Shown here: positions 13,780 through 55,120 of the stretch, piece after piece
Layout: every line of letters starts with the position of its first letter
How positions within the stretch are numbered: the first letter of the stretch is position 1
NCBI RefSeq assembly: GCF_027580225.2
Contig: NW_027395276.1
Span: 744,001-808,000 of the forward strand
Length of the DNA: 64,000 nucleotides
Direction: 5' to 3'
From: Misgurnus anguillicaudatus
Taxonomy: Eukaryota > Chordata > Actinopteri > Cypriniformes > Cobitidae
Notes under the pieces: model-generated
The model's input: the letters and a program-made list of their open reading frames with translations, nothing else
What the model was told of the DNA's origin: nothing
Database searches by the model: none
Made by a program: the position numbers and the translations under genes

Positions 13780-14631
13780 TAAAATCTGCTGAGTTATTTT
13801 TAACCTAGTGCTGGGGAAATATTGGACAGAACACATGCTGGGTTAATAAATAAACCTATGCTGGGTTGTTTCAGCGCAATGCTGGGTTGTTTCAGGGCAA
13901 TGCTGGGTTGTTTCAGGGCAATGCTGGGTTGTTTTAGGGCAATGCTGGGTTGTTTCAGTGCAAAGCTGGGTTGTTTTAGGGCAATGCTGTGTTGTTTCAG
14001 CGCAATGCTGGGTTGTTTTAGGGCAATGCTGGGTTGTTTCCGTGCAATGCTGGGTTGTTTTAGGGCAATGCTGGGTTGTTTCAGTGCAATGCTGGGTTGT
14101 TTTAGGGCAATGCTGGGTTGTTTCAGCGCAATGCTGGGTTGTTCCAGCGCAATGCTGGGTTGTTTCAGCGCAATGCTGGGTTGTTTCAGCGCAATGCTGG
14201 GTTGTTTTAGGGCAATGCTGGGTTGTTTTAGGGCAATGCTGGGTTGTTTCAGCGCAATGCTGGGTTGTTTAAGGGCAATGCTGGATGGTTTCAGCGCAAT
14301 GCTGGGTTGTTCCAGCGCAATGCTGGGTTGTTCATGCGCAATGCTGGGTTGTTCATGCGCAATGCTGGGTTGTTCCAGCCCAATGCTGGGTTGTTTCAGC
14401 GCAATGCTGGGTTGTTTCAGCGCATTGCTGGGTTGTTTCAGGGCAATGCTGGGTTGTTTCAGCGCAATGCTGGGTTGTTTCAGCGCAATGCTGGGTTGTT
14501 TCAAAGCATTGTTGGGTTGTTTCAACTCATGGTTGGGTTAACAACAACCCAGCATAGGTTTTATCTCCACATAGATAGGTTTTATCTCCACTATTTACCT
14601 AGCATTGGGTTAAAAATAACAGCAGAATTTA
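13780..14631. mobile_element. TIR element (MITE) carrying a minisatellite
   Basis: Inverted ends flank the tandem array: the left arm has TCTGCTGAGTTATTTTTAACC at about 13784-13804, and the right arm has GGTTAAAAATAACAGCAGA at about 14608-14626. Outside the array the interior is short. The array has evidently expanded inside the mobile element. Confidence 0.6.
13858..14540. repeat. 21-bp minisatellite, about 32 units
   Basis: The unit is ATGCTGGGTTGTTTCAGCGC plus A, with variants TTTTAGGG, TTTCAGGG, TTCCAGCG and TTCATGCG at its variable end. Since 21 is a multiple of three and the unit lacks stops in most frames, open frames of up to about 240 codons appear on both strands (heptapeptides MLGCFSA on plus and KQPSIAL on minus). 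They are a by-product of the repeat, not evidence of a protein. Confidence 0.9.
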
Positions 14632-14907
14632 AATCTTAATTTAACAAAGGCCTAGTCCTGGCTTTAGCTAAGCCTTGTAAGTAAAAACAGGCCTTAATGT
14701 AAATTCTGTTAATATAGCTTTTCTTGCAATGGCCCGGCTACAATCTTAAGGACATCACTATTTCAGTTTTGTATAGGCGTGTGGTGCTGGGGTGAACTTA
14801 TTGATGTTGACGAGCAATTCCATGCAAATGTCAACCAAGCACAGTTTTTAATCATACTGATATCTCGGATTATTGGGTGTTATTGCTTCTGATTTTTGTG
14901 ATTTTAA

Positions 14908-15599
14908 AGGTGCAGTGTGTAACTTTTAGGAGGATCCCTTGACAGAAATGCAATATAATATACATAACTATATTATAAGTGGTGTATAAAGACCTTACAT
15001 AATGAACTGTATTGTTTTTATTATCTTAGTATGAGCCGTTTTTATCTCCATACTGCCAGTGTTTCCCATACATTGATTTATTTGTGGTGGCCCACCACAG
15101 AATCAACACTGGCCCCCACAAATAGAATTTTCATGATTCCCATTTACATTTTTATTTCACTATTTAAAACAGCTTAATTCGGCTTAAAATATAATTTGAT
15201 ATATAATACAGATCAAATACAGATACAGATCAAAGAGTAGAAGTGAAACATATTTCAGGTGCAAACACTAGATCAAACGCAAACACGACATGATGACGTC
15301 ACATATATGCTAATTAGCGGGTGACGTCATCACCACCACAGTCTCCTCAAAATCCTGTGGGAAACACTGACTGCGCGGGTCCCCTTACATGGAAGTCGCC
15401 ATTTTGTGCCACCATGTTTCTACAGTAGCCCTAAACATACAAACTGCTCTACAGATCGCGTTTCGTCAATACTGTATTTTGTCTTAGACAACAAACATGT
15501 TTTCCTTTTGCAGCTACCATAGCATTTCGGTGAATTGAGCCGTTGGTTGCAATTCACAATCTCACTGCTAGATGCCGCTAAAATCTACACACTGCACCT
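14908..15599. mobile_element. TTAA-flanked MITE, AGGTGCAGTGTGTAA family, copy 1
   Basis: Ends are AGGTGCAGTGTGTAA and its complement TACACACTGCACCT. TTAA occurs at 14904-14907 and 15600-15603. Same-family copies lie at 20041-20419, 52933-53319 and 54709-55040. This copy is longer because another MITE (15057-15369) sits within it. The TTAA duplication fits the Kolobok or piggyBac groups, and the first five bases (AGGTG) match those of the Kolobok element at 16633-23066. Confidence 0.85.
15057..15369. mobile_element. 313-bp MITE (CAGTGTTTCCCA ends) nested in copy 1
   Basis: The ends are CAGTGTTTCCCATAC and its counterpart GTGGGAAACACTG. ACTGC borders both sides (15052-15056 and 15370-15374). 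Removing the insert joins host sequence that matches uninterrupted family copies (TTTATCT..CATAC..TGCG..GTCCCCTT). Confidence 0.75.
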
Positions 15600-15668
15600 T
15601 TAATTTACAAAAATCCTACAAAGAATGTGGCCTCCAAAAACGTATGACCTTTTTTGTCACATCCATAA

Positions 15669-15813: not shown

Positions 15814-16632
15814 TCCATAATGCATGCATGTTTCCCTAGACTGATATTTTTCTAATGTCTGGTTCGTCGGGGGTTAATGAAATTATAAACAGACGGTTAA
15901 ATATATTGGTAATAAATGCATTCTCTGAGAAATTTTATAACAAGTTTTGACTGCAAATGTCACATCCATAAGGCTGGAATGGCCCTGATGTAATTTCTCT
16001 TTGCCTTAATGATTTCTCCTTGCTTTTTACACCACTTATCATGGCATTATTGCAATTATGTAATGTCAAACTCTTATACGTTTTTTTCTTATTTCCATGT
16101 AATATGTCTAGTCTAATATGACGCTTGTTATTTATCACATAATTGACTAAATCACCAACAGTCAAATAGTTTTATCAGATTACAATCTCTATGATGAAAA
16201 TAACATTTGCAATAATACTAAATATTTAATATTTAGTTTATTTCACGTAAAAAGTGCTATATAAATATATCTGACTTGATTTCATGTGTTTACCAGAACA
16301 GCACAAGGAACAGGAAGCAATGCTAAACACTTTTTCAGTTAACGCCAGACCACTTCAGTTCAGTTGCTGTGTAACAATGTGGTTACACTTGCACCTGATA
16401 ATATCATGCAATTCAAGCAGGTAATTACTTTGATCGCAAACACTGATACAACAAGCCCGAGAAATGCTCTCTGATTGCAACAGCAACATTAATTGCATTC
16501 CATCTTTTGCGTAATTGTGTAGAAGTGTAGCACGACATAAAATTAAATTTACCTTTTCACGACTTTCGCCATTAGCAAAATAATCGCGATCTGCCTCGAG
16601 CACTTTTAGGAGCTCATGATTTCCATAATTAA
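15814..16632. other. AT-rich DNA, nothing recognised
   Basis: Open frames of 76 and 95 codons on the minus strand show no motif and no splice structure. The stretch ends at the TTAA (16629-16632) that forms the left target duplication of the Kolobok element. Confidence 0.45.
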
Positions 16633-16646
16633 AGGTGACCAAGAAT
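16633..16646 (+). repeat. Left terminal inverted repeat of the Kolobok element
   Basis: AGGTGACCAAGAAT, preceded by the TTAA target duplication (16629-16632). It matches the right end at all 14 positions. Confidence 0.93.
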
Positions 16647-16899
16647 AGATTGAAATAATGTGTTACATTGCTCTTTGATATCTAAATATAAGGTATGTGG
16701 CTTTTTAAGTGAAAAAATTATCCAGAGACGGTTTTACATGTCCATTTACAACCCTAGGATTTGCCCTCAGAATGAAATGGTCAGTTATTACCTTATTTGG
16801 AAGGTTCATGAATAATTATGAGCTGCGCTCTGATTGGCTGTTCCCAAACGACGGTCACGTCACCAGCTCTCACAGTAAATAGATCTGTCACCGGTGTGA

Positions 16900-18530
16900 A
16901 TGATGGAAAATATAGGCGTTCAACCTTATATGTTTGAACCTGTCTCAGATGATGATGAAGATGAAGATTTTGTACCACAACCAATTGTTAGGAGATTGGA
17001 TATGAACGTTTCTGAATGGTAAGTTTATTTTTTTTCTCAGTATGCACAAACAAAACGTAAGTTAGCTGTAACGGCAATTGTAGAAATTCAAAGCACGTAT
17101 CATTAACTTTGTACGTTAACTCATAAGGCCAGCATTCATTTTTTATCACTGCAACAACATTGTCATTAATGGCATGTCACCGTATGACAATGACTACGTT
17201 TACATGTACACCAAAAGTGCGATGACGAACGTTAACGCAACGTTAAATGATGAGCATGTTATTTTGGATGTATTTCATTATTCTGTGCCGTTATGAAGAC
17301 AGAAATATTGTAACAGCGTCTGTAACAATTTTATACGCTGCTGTCGTGTTATTCGAGTCATTTCTGTATGAAGGCAAACTGCAGGGAAAACTTCATACGT
17401 GCACTTCAGGTAGTGCGGTAAAACTTCGAGCAAAGTGTCATTATTTTTATCGAAGTATTGTGTTTACATGAGGTATAATCTCAATATTGTCAAAATACAA
17501 TTGTAATCACATTTTGAGGGTGCATGTAAACGTAGTCAATGATATATTCTTTAGTATCTAGAACTCATGACTAACTGGACAGTCCGTAAATTTGTTGTTT
17601 GTAAAGGTTTGAGTGTAGCCTACTGTCACGTACTAAAGTTATATAGTTAGAAGTCAATATAGTCACAGTCATGTTTGGTACGACCCTGTTGGAGTGTACA
17701 GTACTGAGGACTTATCATAACCTGCATAAAAAAATCTATAAATATGCATAAAGATTTTTATATGCATAAAAATCTATAAATATCTTTTTTACAGGTGTAC
17801 TTGTGGAAATTGTGCACGCATGACTCTCGAGACAGAACTTGTATGTTGCAGGGAAATACCACAGGTAGTATAACTACAGTAAAAAAATATGTTATGCCAT
17901 GTGTGTGTTTTCTGATACTTGAAGTATAAAAGACTACTGTAAATAATAGTGCCATTATGTTTTTTCCTTTTGCAGGTCACAAGAAGAATGAGCCAAGTTC
18001 CGGAAGAGATATCGTGCATGACAGACCATCCGGGCCTTGAACCTGTGTGCTTAAACTTATATTCTTTGCAAAATGCAATGAATGTTTATCGAGCTGACCA
18101 TGGGCGTTTAAGACTCAGAGGGATGGAAAGGTAAGGCTAATAACAAATAGTTGTTACATGTTGTGTAAATACAATTTTACTTTATGTGTTGCATAGCCAT
18201 ACTGTATGATCTATGTTAGAAATGAAGAAACATGCACAAATAGCACATACGTATTAATATGACACTTTTATTGTGCCTTAGCATCATATAAAGCTGAACT
18301 AATAGCGTGGTAAAACGTAAATACAAAAACAAACAATGTGCTGTCTTCTCTTTCTCCCTTACTGCAGGCAGTGCAGATATTTGGCCTACAGGTGGTTTGT
18401 TAGCTGGTGCTGGGGTTTCCTTGGACGTAGTGTACGTGTTGTCATTCCCTCATGTGTGGTGCTGCGCATACGAAGGGAGTTCCCTAATGCTGCAGGGCAA
18501 TATGTCGGATTCAGACCCCCCCTTGACTGA
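16900..18530 (+). CDS. Transposon-encoded P2X7 ballast-domain protein (168 aa, 4 exons)
   Basis: Exons join as 16900-17018, 17795-17864, 17976-18130 and 18368-18530 (507 bases, all GT/AG, phases consistent). The product is 168 residues. After an acidic lead (SDDDEDEDF, residues 15-23) comes WCTCGNC at 40-46, CC at 57-58, C77, C88, RQCRYLAYRW at 115-124, IPSCVVLRIRREFP at 141-154 and GQYVGF at 158-163. This order of motifs matches the cytosolic ballast domain at the C-terminus of the P2X7 receptor (WCxCGxC, CC, CAYRCY, ILPSCCRWRIRKEFP, GQYSGF), whose cysteines bind zinc and which binds guanine nucleotides. There is no channel or transmembrane segment, so it is a free-standing soluble form. The start chosen is the first of two adjacent ATGs. 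It lies inside a transposon, convergent with the transposase gene and overlapping it by 20 coding bases. A role in transposition or host interaction is unknown. Similar genes are often annotated in fish as P2X purinoceptor 7-like. Confidence 0.9.
17191..17538. mobile_element. MITE in intron 1 of the ballast-domain gene
   Basis: The inverted ends are TGACTACGTTTACATGTACA at the left and TGCATGTAAACGTAGTCA at the right. It lies wholly inside the 17019-17794 intron, so splicing of exons 1 and 2 is probably unaffected. The family is undetermined. Confidence 0.75.
18267..18272 (-). terminator. Candidate polyadenylation signal of the transposase mRNA
   Basis: AATAAA on the minus strand lies about 240 bases past the transposase stop, inside the third intron of the ballast-domain gene. 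If used, the transposase 3' UTR is antisense to that gene's last exon. Confidence 0.45.
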
Positions 18531-21500
18531 AACGTGACACATGCTCCGCAACAGCTTCCTCCATGGAAGGTCTGTCATGCTGAGCAGACAGGTACGGAGG
18601 CACAGGAATCTGCTGTACGGCATCCAGAAATGGAAGGGGATCACAGACAGCCTCTTCAAAAACACTGTCCATCAAGCTGGTGACATAGCCTGTTAAGTTA
18701 ATTTTATATTTATTTATTTAGTTTGTTTTGTTTATTTGCACATATGTAAGTATTGTTTAAAATAAATATTTTTTGTAAAAACATACAAAATGTTGGCTCT
18801 GTCTTTACGGGTTTGACAGTATGTCCTCCCTTTTTGGCCTTTGGAAAGAGAAGCTTGTACACAGGTTTCCCTTTAGATGTTCTCAGTTGTGGCCGTACAG
18901 CATTCTCATTAAAGTGCATTGCTGCAAGATATAATCTAAAGCACAAGACAAAGAATCTGTTCATGTCAACCTTTCAATTTAACACTAAAATTATGTAAAT
19001 GTTCAAATGACAATTAATAGCTACACTATTATGTAACCTGTAAACTCTAATAGAAACATACTTTACTTCAGGTCTTTTAGTTAGAACAGCCTCAAACTGG
19101 TTTGCATTTTCAGTTGTGAGGGAGACGACGTACCTGCATAGCATTCCGATGAAGGGGAACACAACATTTTTGGGTGCAAAGTGTAAGATGACTTTGTGAA
19201 ATGACTCTACAGTTGATGTCTGGTAATGTGGGCTCAGCTTTTCCACATCTGAAAGGACTCTTTTGTTAATCAGCACATTCTGTAGCCTATTTAGTGCTCT
19301 TGAACCTTGGGGAAAACCGATGTAATGTTATTGCTACAACAATTTACATAACATGCCCCACATAACTGCTTATGAGTGTTTTAGGCAAATAACACAACAA
19401 AGTTACACACCTGGTTGAAACCACTTTCTACGGTCCTTAGACAATCTTTGTGCATGTTTACACCTAGGGAAGGCTGGGTCAGAATGTGTGTGAATGTCTT
19501 GAATGTGGTTGATGATAGAGGTCCATTTGGCTAACTTCTCTGGTCCTGAAGCAGAGCTAGTGGCAGACCAGTACAGGTGATTGATGATACTCTTATGCCA
19601 CTTCTTCACCAAACTGCAGTCTTTCTCTCTAGAAATTTTCTCCACCTTCTTTGACAACCCTAAAGAAGTGAATTTACAGTTCAAACATATCACAGATTTT
19701 TTTTAATGACGAAGTAACCTTCGTAAGGGTTATGAATATGTACTTTAACCATGATAATATGAAATGTATTTTCTGTCAACCAAAATAAAAAACCATTACC
19801 TTTAGCCATATGCCAGACGTCATAATAGTGTTTGATTTTACGATCCTTCAGGAACTTTTGTATTTGGGGGTGACGGTCAGTGACAATGCAGTCCAACGTT
19901 ACACCGCTTTCTGATAGGCAATTCAAACTTCGTCTAAGGCCCTCCTTTTCCATGTGGTAGCTTCCCCCTACCTCATTACTCTGTGTACAAACACACAAAC
20001 ATAAATATATGTGTAATATCTTCATAAATGACGTATTTAAAGGTGCAGTGTGTAAATTTTAGTGGCATCTAGTGGTGAAGTTGCGAATTGCAACCAACGG
20101 CTCAGCCCACTGCACAACCCTCGATTTTAAAAGGCATAAAGAAGCTACGATAGCCACCACCGTACAAACGTGTCATCGTCGGAGACAACTTAATAAAACA
20201 GTTTGTCCGTTAAGAGCTTCTGTAGAAACATGGTGGCACAAAATGGTGACTTCAACGTAAGGGGACCCTCAGTGTATGAAGATAAAAACGTCTCATTCTA
20301 AGGTTATAAAAACATAACGGTTCATTATAAAGGGTCTTTATACACCACTGCTAATATAGTTTTGTATATTATTAGGCATTTCTTTCAAGAGATCCTTCTA
20401 AAAATTACACACTGCACCTTTAATATGTGTGTATAAAAAGTAGTCTGATACTACTATCATACTATACTATCAAGGGTAGTTTAGTAGTATACTTGCTATT
20501 TTTCAGCAATCGTACATAACAAGAGTATGTTGTCTGTAGTCTGCTGTTGTTGAAGTATTTTCGAATACCTGTACCAGCTGTATGTCTACAATGTTGTTGG
20601 TCTGCAAGTCCATCATGGTGTAGCTCCCATACTTCGCAGAATGTCCTGAAATAAAAATAATAAAGTTACTAATAAATTTGAAATACAGTAAAGTTATGTA
20701 TCAGACACAAACAACTTCATCTGCAGATTTATGCGGCCTTGTGCAATGCATAGTCCTTTAAATAGTATGAAAAAATCTAAATGAGCATTTGTACCTGGCG
20801 AGTCTGCTCGCATGTCACCACCAAGAATGACACTGTCGTGCTGCGTCAAGTATTGTAGCTTCAAATTTTGCTCTTCATTCCACTTGTGGATGATAGCAGG
20901 TTGAAGGTATGTGTTGGCATGTCTTCTAAAAGCATCATATGTATGCGTTTTCAGGTACATCGCCCTAAACACCTTTAAAGTAAATATGAAAAAAATCAGT
21001 TGTCATATCTACTTTTGACTAATTTGGTGTGTATAAATAATACACTACCTTTTGCATCTTCAAAAAGGATGCTCCACTAAAATAGATGGCAGCAGACAAC
21101 TGAAGGTTCCCCACAGGTGTGCTGCCAATGACAGGCTGACTCCTCCACTGCCTAAAAAAGTCACAGTGAGGGCACAGCTGGTCAATGGCTATGAAGGTCC
21201 CTCTTCTGCGTGGGTGGACATTACAAGCCCTGGTACAAATAGGACAATTCTCGAACAGGCTAAGGAGGCATTTTTCAAATACAATATACTTTGTATCCTT
21301 ATGGAATGGCATTGATGTGGCACTGAAAGAAAACAAAGAAACAACATTGTGTCATTGAAACGAAAACAGGATAACTAATTAACAGTTTGTGTGAAAACAT
21401 TGTTGAATTGTCAGATAAGTGTGACAGATAACTGTACTTACGAAACCTGTGAAGATTGTGTCTCAGTTGTAACAGACTGTGCAGGATCATATGTGGAATC

Positions 21501-22770
21501 TTGTGGATCAGTGACAGCAAAGGAAACATCCCCCATTTCCTGATCCTCCTCCAATTCAACACGGGGTCTTTTGGCTGGCCTTGAATCCTTCACTGGTGTC
21601 GATGTAAAAGGCAGCATTGTGGGCCATGGCATTGTTGGAGTTGTGGTGCCTACCGCCACACTTTGAGATGGCACTGTCACCTGTACGCCTAAAAAAAAAA
21701 AATAGTAGTATGGCAAATAAAGTTAACCCATATAAGATTTTAATAACTGGGCACAAATAAATTATGTTCTTTGTTCATCATTGCAAACAGATTTTGATGA
21801 TTAAGAATAGACCTATATTTAGCAGCAATTAATAATAATACACAATTAGTCTGTCCTTACAGAAGCACACTGGCTCTTAATAATAAATAACATTACCTTT
21901 GCTTCGAAGGTGGGGCCTCAATGTTGTCAAAGACAGCTGTGTTCCCTTAGATAAAACCACAGGATCATCTGTTTGACAGCCTACATCTTTTGTGCACAGG
22001 GGCTGTGATGTACTCTGAAATTCAAGCATGCCAACAGTCATACCGCAGTTTTCAAAAAAAAAAAAAAAAGTGTAAAGATATTGTATAGGCTAATGCAAAT
22101 CGACATGATCGCGCTGACAATCATTTCAGCGAGTGAGCTATCTTTGAGCAACCGTAGTAACCGTGTTAGTGCCTGATTTATGTGCTGTTGATGAAATATA
22201 GACTACATAAAAAATCTACCCGAACAAATGAATTGACATATGTATCTAGAGTTGTAATCAGGCAGGAATTAATATAAACATGCGCGTACATATCGTCATA
22301 CTAAGTAACGTAGTTATCTATGTCATTTAGTTTGACAGTTAAAGAAAGCAACGGTTAAATTTACAACAGACGCATCTTGCGTTTGATCTTAACAACGCAG
22401 GTTAACTTATCAGTAACATTGTTTGCTTACGATACACCTTTACATTTAAATCGAAATCAACAGTAAATAAGTAAATAAAATCAATACTTACGGATTGTAG
22501 GGTTTGTAATTGCCATATTGTTGGAATTGCTCCCTTTTTTAGTACCAAACGCTGGGCGAATCCTGCGTGATATTGTCCCAGGTTCGAAAAACTGTCCGCG
22601 GTAAAATGGTCAGAACAAATTAACAATTTGTGATTAAACTGCTCCGGTATCCGGTTGTATATAAACATCAACCATGCCTGTTGACACTTCTTTTCTGTGG
22701 GAAGGGTATGGAAAGTGCTCACATGCCCCGCACAACCTGGAACATAACATTTGTTTCCATGTTCTGTCAT
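18511..22770 (-). CDS. Kolobok-type THAP/DDE transposase (700 aa, 11 exons)
   Basis: Exons in coding order: 22770-22492, 22014-21897, 21688-21442, 21322-21049, 20972-20795, 20645-20569, 19980-19800, 19659-19411, 19305-19134, 18935-18787, 18689-18511. They total 2103 bases with consistent phases and GT/AG introns, giving 700 residues. Residues 1-93 hold a THAP DNA-binding zinc finger (C8, C13, C52, H55, with P24 and W33). A low-complexity linker covers about 94-214. A likely zinc ribbon has C241/C244 and C265/C268. The catalytic core shows GGDMRADSPGHSAKYG (D359), IVTDRHPQIQKF (D426), YYDVWHMAKG (D445) and STVESFHKVI (E568), the DDE set. A conserved tail has RLYLAAMHFNEN and FPKAKKGG. The enzyme should bind the element's ends and cut and paste it into TTAA sites in the nucleus. 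The start ATG at 22770 directly precedes the THAP finger. No stop or frameshift interrupts the frame. The junctions are inferred by eye, so one or two could differ in real mRNA. Confidence 0.9.
18761..18766 (+). terminator. Candidate polyadenylation signal of the ballast-domain mRNA
   Basis: AATAAA on the plus strand lies about 230 bases past the stop at 18528-18530, in the intron between transposase exons 10 and 11. Together with the opposing signal at 18267-18272 it would make the two mRNAs overlap for about 500 bases. Confidence 0.45.
20041..20419. mobile_element. TTAA MITE, AGGTGCAG family, copy 2, inside a transposase intron
   Basis: The ends AGGTGCAGTGTGTAA and TTACACACTGCACCT are flanked by TTAA at 20037-20040 and 20420-20423. 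It lies in the 19981-20568 intron between transposase exons 6 and 7 and leaves both splice sites intact. Confidence 0.88.
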
Positions 22771-23052
22771 TTTCGTCCTCGCTTGTTACTTTGTAATACC
22801 CAGATGATTACGCTGTGAACGTCCAGCTTGCCTCGAAGATGGGCGTGTATATGCAAATGTTGGGGGCGTATACATCTCGACAGTTACGTCACTGCCGGTG
22901 TTCTGTTGAGATCGGCCTGTTTTTCAGTGGATTTTTGAATGCATGATATTTACTTGAGACTGAGGAAACATTACTGTTTGAGGCTCACGATATGTCATTA
23001 CTATATACAGAGCTCTAATTATTCGGCTATGACGAGGTAAATACAGTTTAAC

Positions 23053-23066
23053 ATTCTTGGTCACCT
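23053..23066 (-). repeat. Right terminal inverted repeat of the Kolobok element
   Basis: ATTCTTGGTCACCT on the plus strand is the complement of the left end. It is followed by TTAA at 23067-23070. Confidence 0.93.
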
Positions 23067-23298
23067 TTAAAACCCTGAACGATCATCAGCAATCACACTA
23101 GCTCTCACCCGCCGTTCAACACAGACTCTCTTTTGCGACACATCTAGCAAAACGGTCATGCCTCTCTCTTCACAGGCCTGTTTCAAATGAAACAAATCAT
23201 TGCCAATCAAGGGGGGGGGGGGTATAAATTAGGAGCTCTTATTTCACTGGCACTATATACGCCACAGAATTGTGGTTTCTGTCTACATCCATAACTGC

Positions 23299-37249: not shown

Positions 37250-37799
37250 CACTCACCTAAAGGATTATTAGGAACACCTGTTCAATTTCTCATTAATGCA
37301 ATGGTGTAATGATGTGGGGGATGTTTTCTTGGCACACTTTAGGCCCCTTAGTGCCAATTGGGTATCATTTAAATGCCACGGCCTACCTGAGCATTGTTTC
37401 TGACCATGTCCATCCCTTTATGACCACCATGTACCCATCCTCTGATGGCTACTTCCAGCAGGATAATGCACCATGTCACAAAGCTCGAATCATTTCAAAT
37501 TGGTTTCTTGAACATGACAATGAGTTCACTGTACTAAAATGGCCCCCACAGTCACCAGATCTCAACCCAATCGAGCATCTTTGGGATGTGGTGGAACGAG
37601 AGCTTCGTGCCCTGGATGTGCATCCCACAAATCTACATCAACTGGAAGATGCTATCCTATCAATATGGGCCAACATTACTAAAGAATGCTTTCAGCACCT
37701 TGTTGAATCAATGCCACGTAGCATTAAAGCAGGTCTGAAGGCGAAAGGGGGTCAAACACAGTATTAGTATGGTGTTCCTAATAATCCTTTAGGTGAGTG
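37250..37799 (+). mobile_element. Internally deleted Tc1/mariner element (550 bp)
   Basis: Perfect 29-bp terminal inverted repeats (37250-37278 and 37771-37799, beginning CACTCACCTAAAGGATTATT) are flanked by TA at 37248-37249 and 37800-37801. Intact relatives are about 1.2 kb or more, so roughly the first half is missing. The ends are complete and could still be mobilised in trans. Confidence 0.92.
37309..37767 (+). pseudogene. C-terminal part of a Tc1/mariner transposase (152 codons)
   Basis: The frame holds the second and third catalytic residues of a DDE transposase: YFQQDNAPCHKA with the second D, and PQSPDLNPIEHLWD with the E. There are 36 residues between them, which fits the DD36E group (named Incomer in the literature I recall) rather than classical DD34E Tc1. 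The N-terminal paired-type helix-turn-helix and the first catalytic D are absent, so it cannot be an active enzyme. The frame is open to TAG at 37765-37767, just before the right inverted repeat. An in-frame MMWGMFSW at the apparent start matches an internal transposase segment, so that ATG is not a true start. Confidence 0.88.
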
Positions 37800-52850: not shown

Positions 52851-52932
52851 GCATACCCTAATAAGCTTTCATGTTTAAAAAAATAAAAATATGCTATAAA
52901 ACACAAACTCAATAACAACAAAGTCCTTTTAA

Positions 52933-53319
52933 AGGTGCAGTGTGTAATTTTTAGCGGCATCTAGTGGTGAGACTGTGAGTTGCAACAAAACGGCCTGTCC
53001 ACGGCTTACCCCTCGCTTTTGAAGCGCATAGAGAACCTACGGTAGCTGCCACAGGACAAACATGTCATCATCGGAGATCAAACAACTTATCAAACAAAGT
53101 TTGTCCGTTAAAGGCTTCTGTAGAAACATGGCGGCACAAAATGGTGACTTCCATGTAAGGGGACCCACAGTGTATGTAGATAAAAATGGCTCATTCTAAG
53201 GTAATAAAAACATAATGGTTTATTATGTAAGGTCTTTTTACAGACCCTTGATAATATAGTTTTGTATATTATATTGCATTTCTGTCAAGAGATCCTTCTA
53301 AAAGTTACACACTGCACCT
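52933..53319. mobile_element. TTAA MITE, AGGTGCAG family, copy 3
   Basis: The ends AGGTGCAGTGTGTAA and TTACACACTGCACCT are flanked by TTAA at 52929-52932 and 53320-53323. It is close in length and internal sequence to copy 2. Confidence 0.9.
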
Positions 53320-53447
53320 TTAAGGTAGTTTATTTATAAAACAAGCAAAATAAACAACACGTATATTACCAAGGAAACCAAAATATTTTTTATTTTCGAT
53401 GAGGTATTTGTTTAAGAGTTCAGTTAAGCAACTAGTGAGACAATTAA

Positions 53448-54704: not shown

Positions 54705-54708
54705 TTAA

Positions 54709-55040
54709 TGGTGCATTGTGTAACTTTTAGAATGATCTCTTTACAGAAATGCAATATAAACTACATAACTATATCATCAGTGGTGTATAAAGACCTTACA
54801 AAATGAACTTTTTTCTACATACACTGCGAGTCCCCTTACATGAAAGTCGCCATTATGTTTCTACAGTAGCCCTAAACAGACAAACTGCTCTACAAAGCAC
54901 GTTTCATCCCTACGTTGTCTCAGACGACAACATGTTTGTCCTGTGGGGCTACCGTATGCGTTTTGAAATTGATGGGTGAGCTGTTGGTTGCGATTTGCAG
55001 CCTTACCACTCGATGCACTTAAAATTTACACACACCGCCT
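54709..55040. mobile_element. TTAA MITE, AGGTGCAG family, copy 4
   Basis: The ends TGGTGCATTGTGTAAC and TTTACACACACCGCCT are somewhat mutated, with TTAA at 54705-54708 and 55041-55044. Confidence 0.85.
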
Positions 55041-55120
55041 TTAAAACTACATTTTATGACAGAGAAAGAGTAATATTTTGAATATTGTGCAGGTTTAAGC
55101 TCCATTGCCGTTGAAGCGAA

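Follow-up and report, generated by a model that had tools for sequence, protein, structure and literature searches.

We analyzed a 64,000-nucleotide stretch of the genome of the fish Misgurnus anguillicaudatus (contig NW_027395276.1, positions 744,001 to 808,000; hereafter the window) and found an apparently intact TTAA transposon at positions 16633-23066 of the window (6,434 bp). Two convergent spliced gene models lie between its ends, with 179 bp separating their stops. One predicts a transposase of the Kolobok type. The other predicts a protein that matches the cytoplasmic ballast domain of the P2X7 receptor, and we refer to it as KolX, the name that Kojima and Bao gave in 2022 to a second protein encoded by Kolobok transposons of the Kol0 lineage (PMC9587614). 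The features are as follows, with window coordinates, strand, and basis.

16629..16632, no strand: left TTAA target-site duplication (sequence and inverted-pair search)
16633..16646, + strand: left-end terminal inverted repeat of 14 bp, AGGTGACCAAGAAT (its complementarity with the right end is 100%)
16900..17018, + strand: KolX (ballast protein) exon 1, ATG at 16900 (open spliced frame)
17795..17864, + strand: KolX exon 2, cysteines 41, 43, 46, 57, and 58 (open spliced frame, residue map)
17976..18130, + strand: KolX exon 3, C77 (open spliced frame, residue map)
18368..18530, + strand: KolX exon 4, CRYLAYRW, IPSC..RIRREFP, and GQYVGF, stop at 18528-18530 (open frame; Pfam P2RX7_C)
18710..18935, - strand: transposase exon 10, stop ends at 18710 (open spliced frame)
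19062..19305, - strand: transposase exon 9, TVESFH with candidate catalytic E568 (motif reading)
19411..19659, - strand: transposase exon 8, H2CH-like zinc motif H503/H508/C518/H520 (motif reading)
19800..19980, - strand: transposase exon 7, TDRHP with candidate second D426, and the C/DxxH motif DVWH at residues 445-448 (motif reading)
20569..20645, - strand: transposase exon 6 (open spliced frame)
20795..20972, - strand: transposase exon 5, GGDMRADSPG with candidate first catalytic D (open spliced frame, motif reading)
21049..21322, - strand: transposase exon 4 (open spliced frame)
21442..21688, - strand: transposase exon 3 (open spliced frame)
21897..22014, - strand: transposase exon 2 (open spliced frame)
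22492..22770, - strand: transposase exon 1, ATG at 22770, THAP domain at residues 8-85 (open spliced frame, Pfam)
23053..23066, - strand: right 14-bp terminal inverted repeat (inverted-pair search and window-wide match count)
23067..23070, no strand: right TTAA target-site duplication (sequence and inverted-pair search)

We found that positions 16629-16646 and 23053-23070 form an 18-nt inverted pair, made up of TTAA and the 14-bp repeat, that is 100% complementary. A preliminary description of this DNA had reported perfect 14-bp inverted ends with TTAA duplications, and its coordinates proved exact. When up to 3 mismatches were allowed, the 18-nt end matched at only 2 sites across the 64 kb of the window, where chance would give 0.11 on average, and none of 100 shuffled windows held two or more matches. 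Over an 80-base comparison of the two ends, the first 18 bases are alike and the sequences diverge beyond them. Kolobok elements are described as duplicating TTAA and having termini of the form 5'-RR..YY-3' (PMC9587614). Consistently with this, the 4-bp TTAA is present on both sides of the element and its termini read 5'-AG..CT-3'.

The KolX model joins four exons on the + strand into a predicted 168-amino-acid protein with a single terminal stop. All 12 introns across the KolX and transposase models are GT..AG, and both frames are open over a total of 858 codons. Because we picked the splice sites of both genes by eye, with open frames as the aim, this openness is partly by construction. The sole Pfam family found for KolX at E values up to 0.1 was P2RX7_C (PF20478; residues 35-164, E = 2.8e-18). 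This match spans all three KolX exon joints and therefore supports the splice choice. A search of PDB with KolX returned four distinct P2X7 sequences (E = 5.1e-10 to 7.9e-8). Two iC++ rows (E = 0.35 and 0.41, in a listing to E = 1) were taken as chance. The P2X7 ballast and KolX are homologous through PF20478; P2X7 also has a channel, whereas no P2X channel domain was found in the 168 residues of KolX (Pfam, E values up to 0.1). The preliminary description had claimed two spliced genes between the ends and a 168-residue protein without a channel. The open joined frames with GT..AG introns agree with the first claim, and the translation and the single Pfam match agree with the second. The motifs that it listed (WCxCGxC, CC, CRYLAYRW, IPSCxxxRIRREFP, and GQYxGF) are all present in the KolX translation.

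We aligned KolX with a rat P2X7 fragment using MAFFT and found that 38 of 119 aligned positions are identical. The P2X7 ballast, or ZCD, is marked by three cysteine clusters with seven zinc-coordinating cysteines, and in this alignment KolX has them all: rat C477, C479, C482, C498, C499, C506, and C572 (counted from the start of the PDB chain) correspond to KolX C41, C43, C46, C57, C58, C77, and C144. A CC-R motif is common to both proteins, and MAFFT matches both by means of gaps.

The introns of KolX set it apart from P2X7. Intron 1 falls in the W40 codon, just ahead of the first cluster cysteine, and introns 2 and 3 lie inside the ballast domain, after residue 63 and in codon 115. In P2X7, by the account of Rump et al. 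(PMC7016195), a single exon, exon 13, encodes the ballast. Since two introns split its ballast domain, this KolX family is no simple exon donor for P2X7. The donor would either have been intronless there or have given rise to a sequence that later lost its introns.

The transposase model consists of 10 exons on the - strand, running from 22770 down to 18710, and predicts a 690-amino-acid protein with a single stop. Pfam places a THAP domain (PF05485) at its N-terminal end with E = 1.9e-12. In PDB, the only row at E values up to 0.1 was a weak match to THAP2 (E = 0.007). By reading, the THAP features expected in Kolobok transposases are C8, C13, C52, and H55, followed by the box AIPTIW at residues 81-86, in which two residues depart from AVPTIF (I in place of V and W in place of F). 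The candidate DDE residues are D359 or D363 (in GGDMRADSPG, 357-366), D426, and E568, all read from motifs rather than from a reference alignment or structure. DVWH fits, by reading, a C/DxxH motif between the second D and the E; this motif is described as common to Kolobok, hAT, P, MuDR, and Dada (PMC9587614). H503, H508, C518, and H520 likewise fit an H2CH zinc motif by reading rather than by reference alignment. We found that GGDMRADSPG, TDRHP, DVWH, H..H..C.H, and TVESFH run in the order described for Kolobok transposases.

Previous work describes this type of transposon. Kojima and Bao reported that Kol0 Kolobok elements encode a second protein, KolX, which is clearly similar to the cytoplasmic ballast of human P2X7 (residues 476-595). 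They concluded that P2X7 is the product of a fusion between a P2X4-like gene and KolX and that the fish gene nanor is likely a domesticated KolX (PMC9587614). The Kol0 elements of the Kolobok-1_XT type that they describe share with our element the TTAA duplication, the RR/YY termini, and a separate KolX gene; their DDD/E transposase would have its counterpart in the candidate DDE residues read here. The P2X7-type ballast protein encoded by the second gene is the feature of the Kol0 lineage, and here it is recognized by both Pfam and PDB. Thus, the main claim, a Kolobok that carries KolX, is already published, and so is the residence of a ballast gene in a TTAA transposon, on which the preliminary description took no position. 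In the literature searched, the name KolX occurs in PMC9587614 only, and the accessible text of that paper contains no KolX experiment; P2X7 and Kolobok are mentioned together there and in one general review. The preliminary description also noted that the ballast domain had been described outside P2X7, and Rump et al. (2020; PMC7016195) indeed describe it across animals. The main text of their paper contains no words beginning with transpos, Kolobok, or mobile. In view of the report by Kojima and Bao, we rejected the idea that the finding is new in kind. What may be new is the anatomy of one copy with coordinates, the intron-split ballast, and a nested TTAA element.

The nested element lies in transposase intron 6 at 20037-20423 (387 bp, including both TTAA), and its ends are AGGTGCAGTGTGTAA. 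Related copies are found at 52929-53323, at 14904-15603 (interrupted), and at 54705-55059 (diverged). The ends of this small family and those of the large element share TTAAAGGTG, and both start with AGGTG. Nine 9-mers of the TTAAAGGTG type occur in the window: six at small-family ends, two at the large-element ends, and one (20978) at neither. The small TTAA family may have been moved by a Kolobok transposase. KolX intron 1 contains an inverted repeat, 17183-17226 with 17503-17546 (44 nt, 77% complementary), and the interval 17183-17546 is perhaps a second nested miniature element.

The ends, the gene models, Pfam, PDB, and the residue map support the earlier reading of this locus, in which a TTAA transposon of the Kolobok type encodes a ballast protein that stands free. 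We extend it as follows, with a probability of roughly 0.88: the element is an apparently intact, autonomous Kolobok of the Kol0 kind, KolX is most likely its accessory protein, and the P2X7 tail derives from an old KolX. According to this model, the THAP domain of the transposase would read the element ends, as the motifs and ends suggest. The RNase-H/DDE core would excise the element, and insertion at TTAA would duplicate that site, both as expected from the mechanism of the class. KolX, a ballast domain on its own that presumably binds zinc, would work with the transposase as an accessory protein in transposition. The P2X7 tail would have been gained through fusion with an old KolX gene, following Kojima and Bao (PMC9587614).

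Several points weigh against this reading. The evidence comes from one copy. Placement in Kol0 would depend on KolX and on motifs, and the DDE residues, assigned by eye, are candidates. A Pfam match of the transposase to the Mutator-like transposase family is under the cut-off (E = 1.7e-4, 21.1 bits against a cut-off of 26.5). The part of KolX as an accessory subunit for transposition, although the most likely one, is a prediction from sequence. In a phmmer alignment, KolX C57 and C58 are out of register with the rat CC, and five of the seven cysteines align. Two of the five rat GDP contacts (R546, H547, R574, R578, and K583) are kept, as R118 and R150; H547 is changed to Y (Y119), R574 to V (V146), and K583 to N (N155). 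Partial sets of GDP contacts like that of KolX are reported by Rump et al. in nanor and in invertebrate members other than P2X7 (PMC7016195), so that a full set is not defining for the wider domain family. Finally, the nested element and the intron 1 repeat suggest that the copy is not brand new and has been in place for some time.

Those same insertions raise the question of decay or domestication: the locus might be a relic and no longer an autonomous element, since both the TTAA element in transposase intron 6 and the inverted repeat in the first KolX intron point to some age. However, both frames are open throughout, every intron keeps its GT..AG, and neither the TTAA copies nor the terminal repeats show a mismatch. 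Intact ends would be unnecessary for a domesticated gene. We consider a relic quite unlikely. It is also conceivable that the ballast gene does not belong to the transposon at all but is an unrelated, nanor-like host gene or a separate mobile piece that lies inside, or was picked up by, a transposase-only Kolobok. Both ingredients exist: ballast-only genes such as nanor are annotated in fish genomes (PMC7016195), and Kolobok lineages other than Kol0 are reported to have other accessory genes or none, some consisting of a transposase only (PMC9587614). Nanor and other ZCD-only proteins of fish and invertebrates are, like KolX, short proteins with a C-terminal ballast and no other known domain. 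This likeness is drawn from their description by Rump et al., who give them as genes (PMC7016195), whereas KolX here lies within intact transposon ends. The preliminary description had held that nested ends around the ballast gene alone would speak against its reading, and among 19 inverted pairs we found none that is convincing. Two pairs flank the ballast gene but leave the transposase gene outside, and neither has TTAA at both outer edges. One (I15, 16678/18704, 14 nt, 86%) is AT-rich and looks like chance; so does the other (I8, 16537/18692, 16 nt, 88%), which is also AT-rich and whose left arm lies outside the element. We rejected a ballast gene with its own ends on the basis of this search. 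With the two genes convergent and their stops so close, and with the pair of KolX and transposase being the published make-up of Kol0 (PMC9587614), an independent ballast gene appears extremely unlikely.

A different question is what KolX acts on. It could target the host rather than transposon DNA, for instance as a regulator in the cytoplasm or at the membrane, as the P2X7 ballast may. The P2X7 ballast is intracellular, and the authors of PMC9859053 propose unknown ligands or partners for it. The three changed GDP-contact positions in KolX also fit such a role. Against it, KolX adjoins a THAP/DDE transposase within the element, and a mite protein hints at a partner on the DNA side. In this protein, XP_029850348, Rump et al. 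(PMC7016195) report a THAP-type domain (printed as "TAHP") on the same chain as the ballast zinc domain. Such a protein would, if real, be a natural fusion of two functions that are separate here; it may be a gene-model error. We regard a host target as unlikely. An accessory role for KolX in transposition is favored because KolX is encoded beside the transposase and because the mite protein joins THAP-type and ballast domains.

P element and THAP9 transposases combine a THAP domain with an RNase-H/DDE-type transposase, as our transposase appears to do. In the P element transposase, GTP bound in an inserted domain is reported to be needed for end pairing, cleavage, and strand transfer (PMC7776569). 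The P transposase thus has its own GTP-binding insertion, whereas the element here has a separate protein whose domain, in P2X7, binds guanine nucleotide. By analogy, KolX might be a subunit of the Kolobok transpososome that depends on guanine nucleotide and zinc and acts in trans like the P element insertion, a long shot that we consider very improbable. We treat the idea as no more than speculative because three of the five GDP-contact residues differ. We know of no relation between the fold of the P element GTP-binding insertion and that of the ballast. In the literature searched, we found nothing that ties THAP transposases, GTP, and P element synapsis together. If the idea were true, P2X7 would have inherited its guanine-nucleotide site from a cofactor site used in transposition.

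The locus provides coordinates for an apparently intact transposon of the type from which, by the proposal of Kojima and Bao, P2X7 gained its tail. With such a copy, the function of KolX could be studied apart from a receptor. Some caution is also due with fish annotation, where loci called P2X7-like may belong to transposons.

We searched for relatives of the element in IMG/VR, which is viral, and in GTDB genomes, which are prokaryotic; both collections say little about relatives of an animal element. In IMG/VR, 37 pattern stretches for KolX and 4 for the transposase were found, and none was confirmed. A profile of KolX and the rat P2X7 fragment gave 9 pattern stretches in IMG/VR and 26 in GTDB, and again none was confirmed. 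This lack of confirmed viral or prokaryotic relatives is expected because the element is animal. An exact search with the 18-nt end matched 4 IMG/VR contigs. In the rest of the window, tblastn gave one match to KolX (E = 0.08) and no match to the transposase at E values up to 1, and an Rfam scan of the window found no family at the cut-off.

When the element is removed in silico and one TTAA is left, a 99-codon open frame on the - strand spans the site (16355-16628 joined to 23071 onward). In the filled locus, the 108-amino-acid frame at 16355-16681, which holds most of the 99-codon frame, has no Pfam match at E values up to 1. Elsewhere in the window, a tandem array of a 21-bp unit (about 32 copies, 91% matches) occupies 13858-14524 and holds several open frames on both strands. 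At 37297-37764 (+ strand) lies a transposase fragment that matches Pfam DDE_3 (E = 7.7e-13) and is presumably of the Tc1/mariner type.

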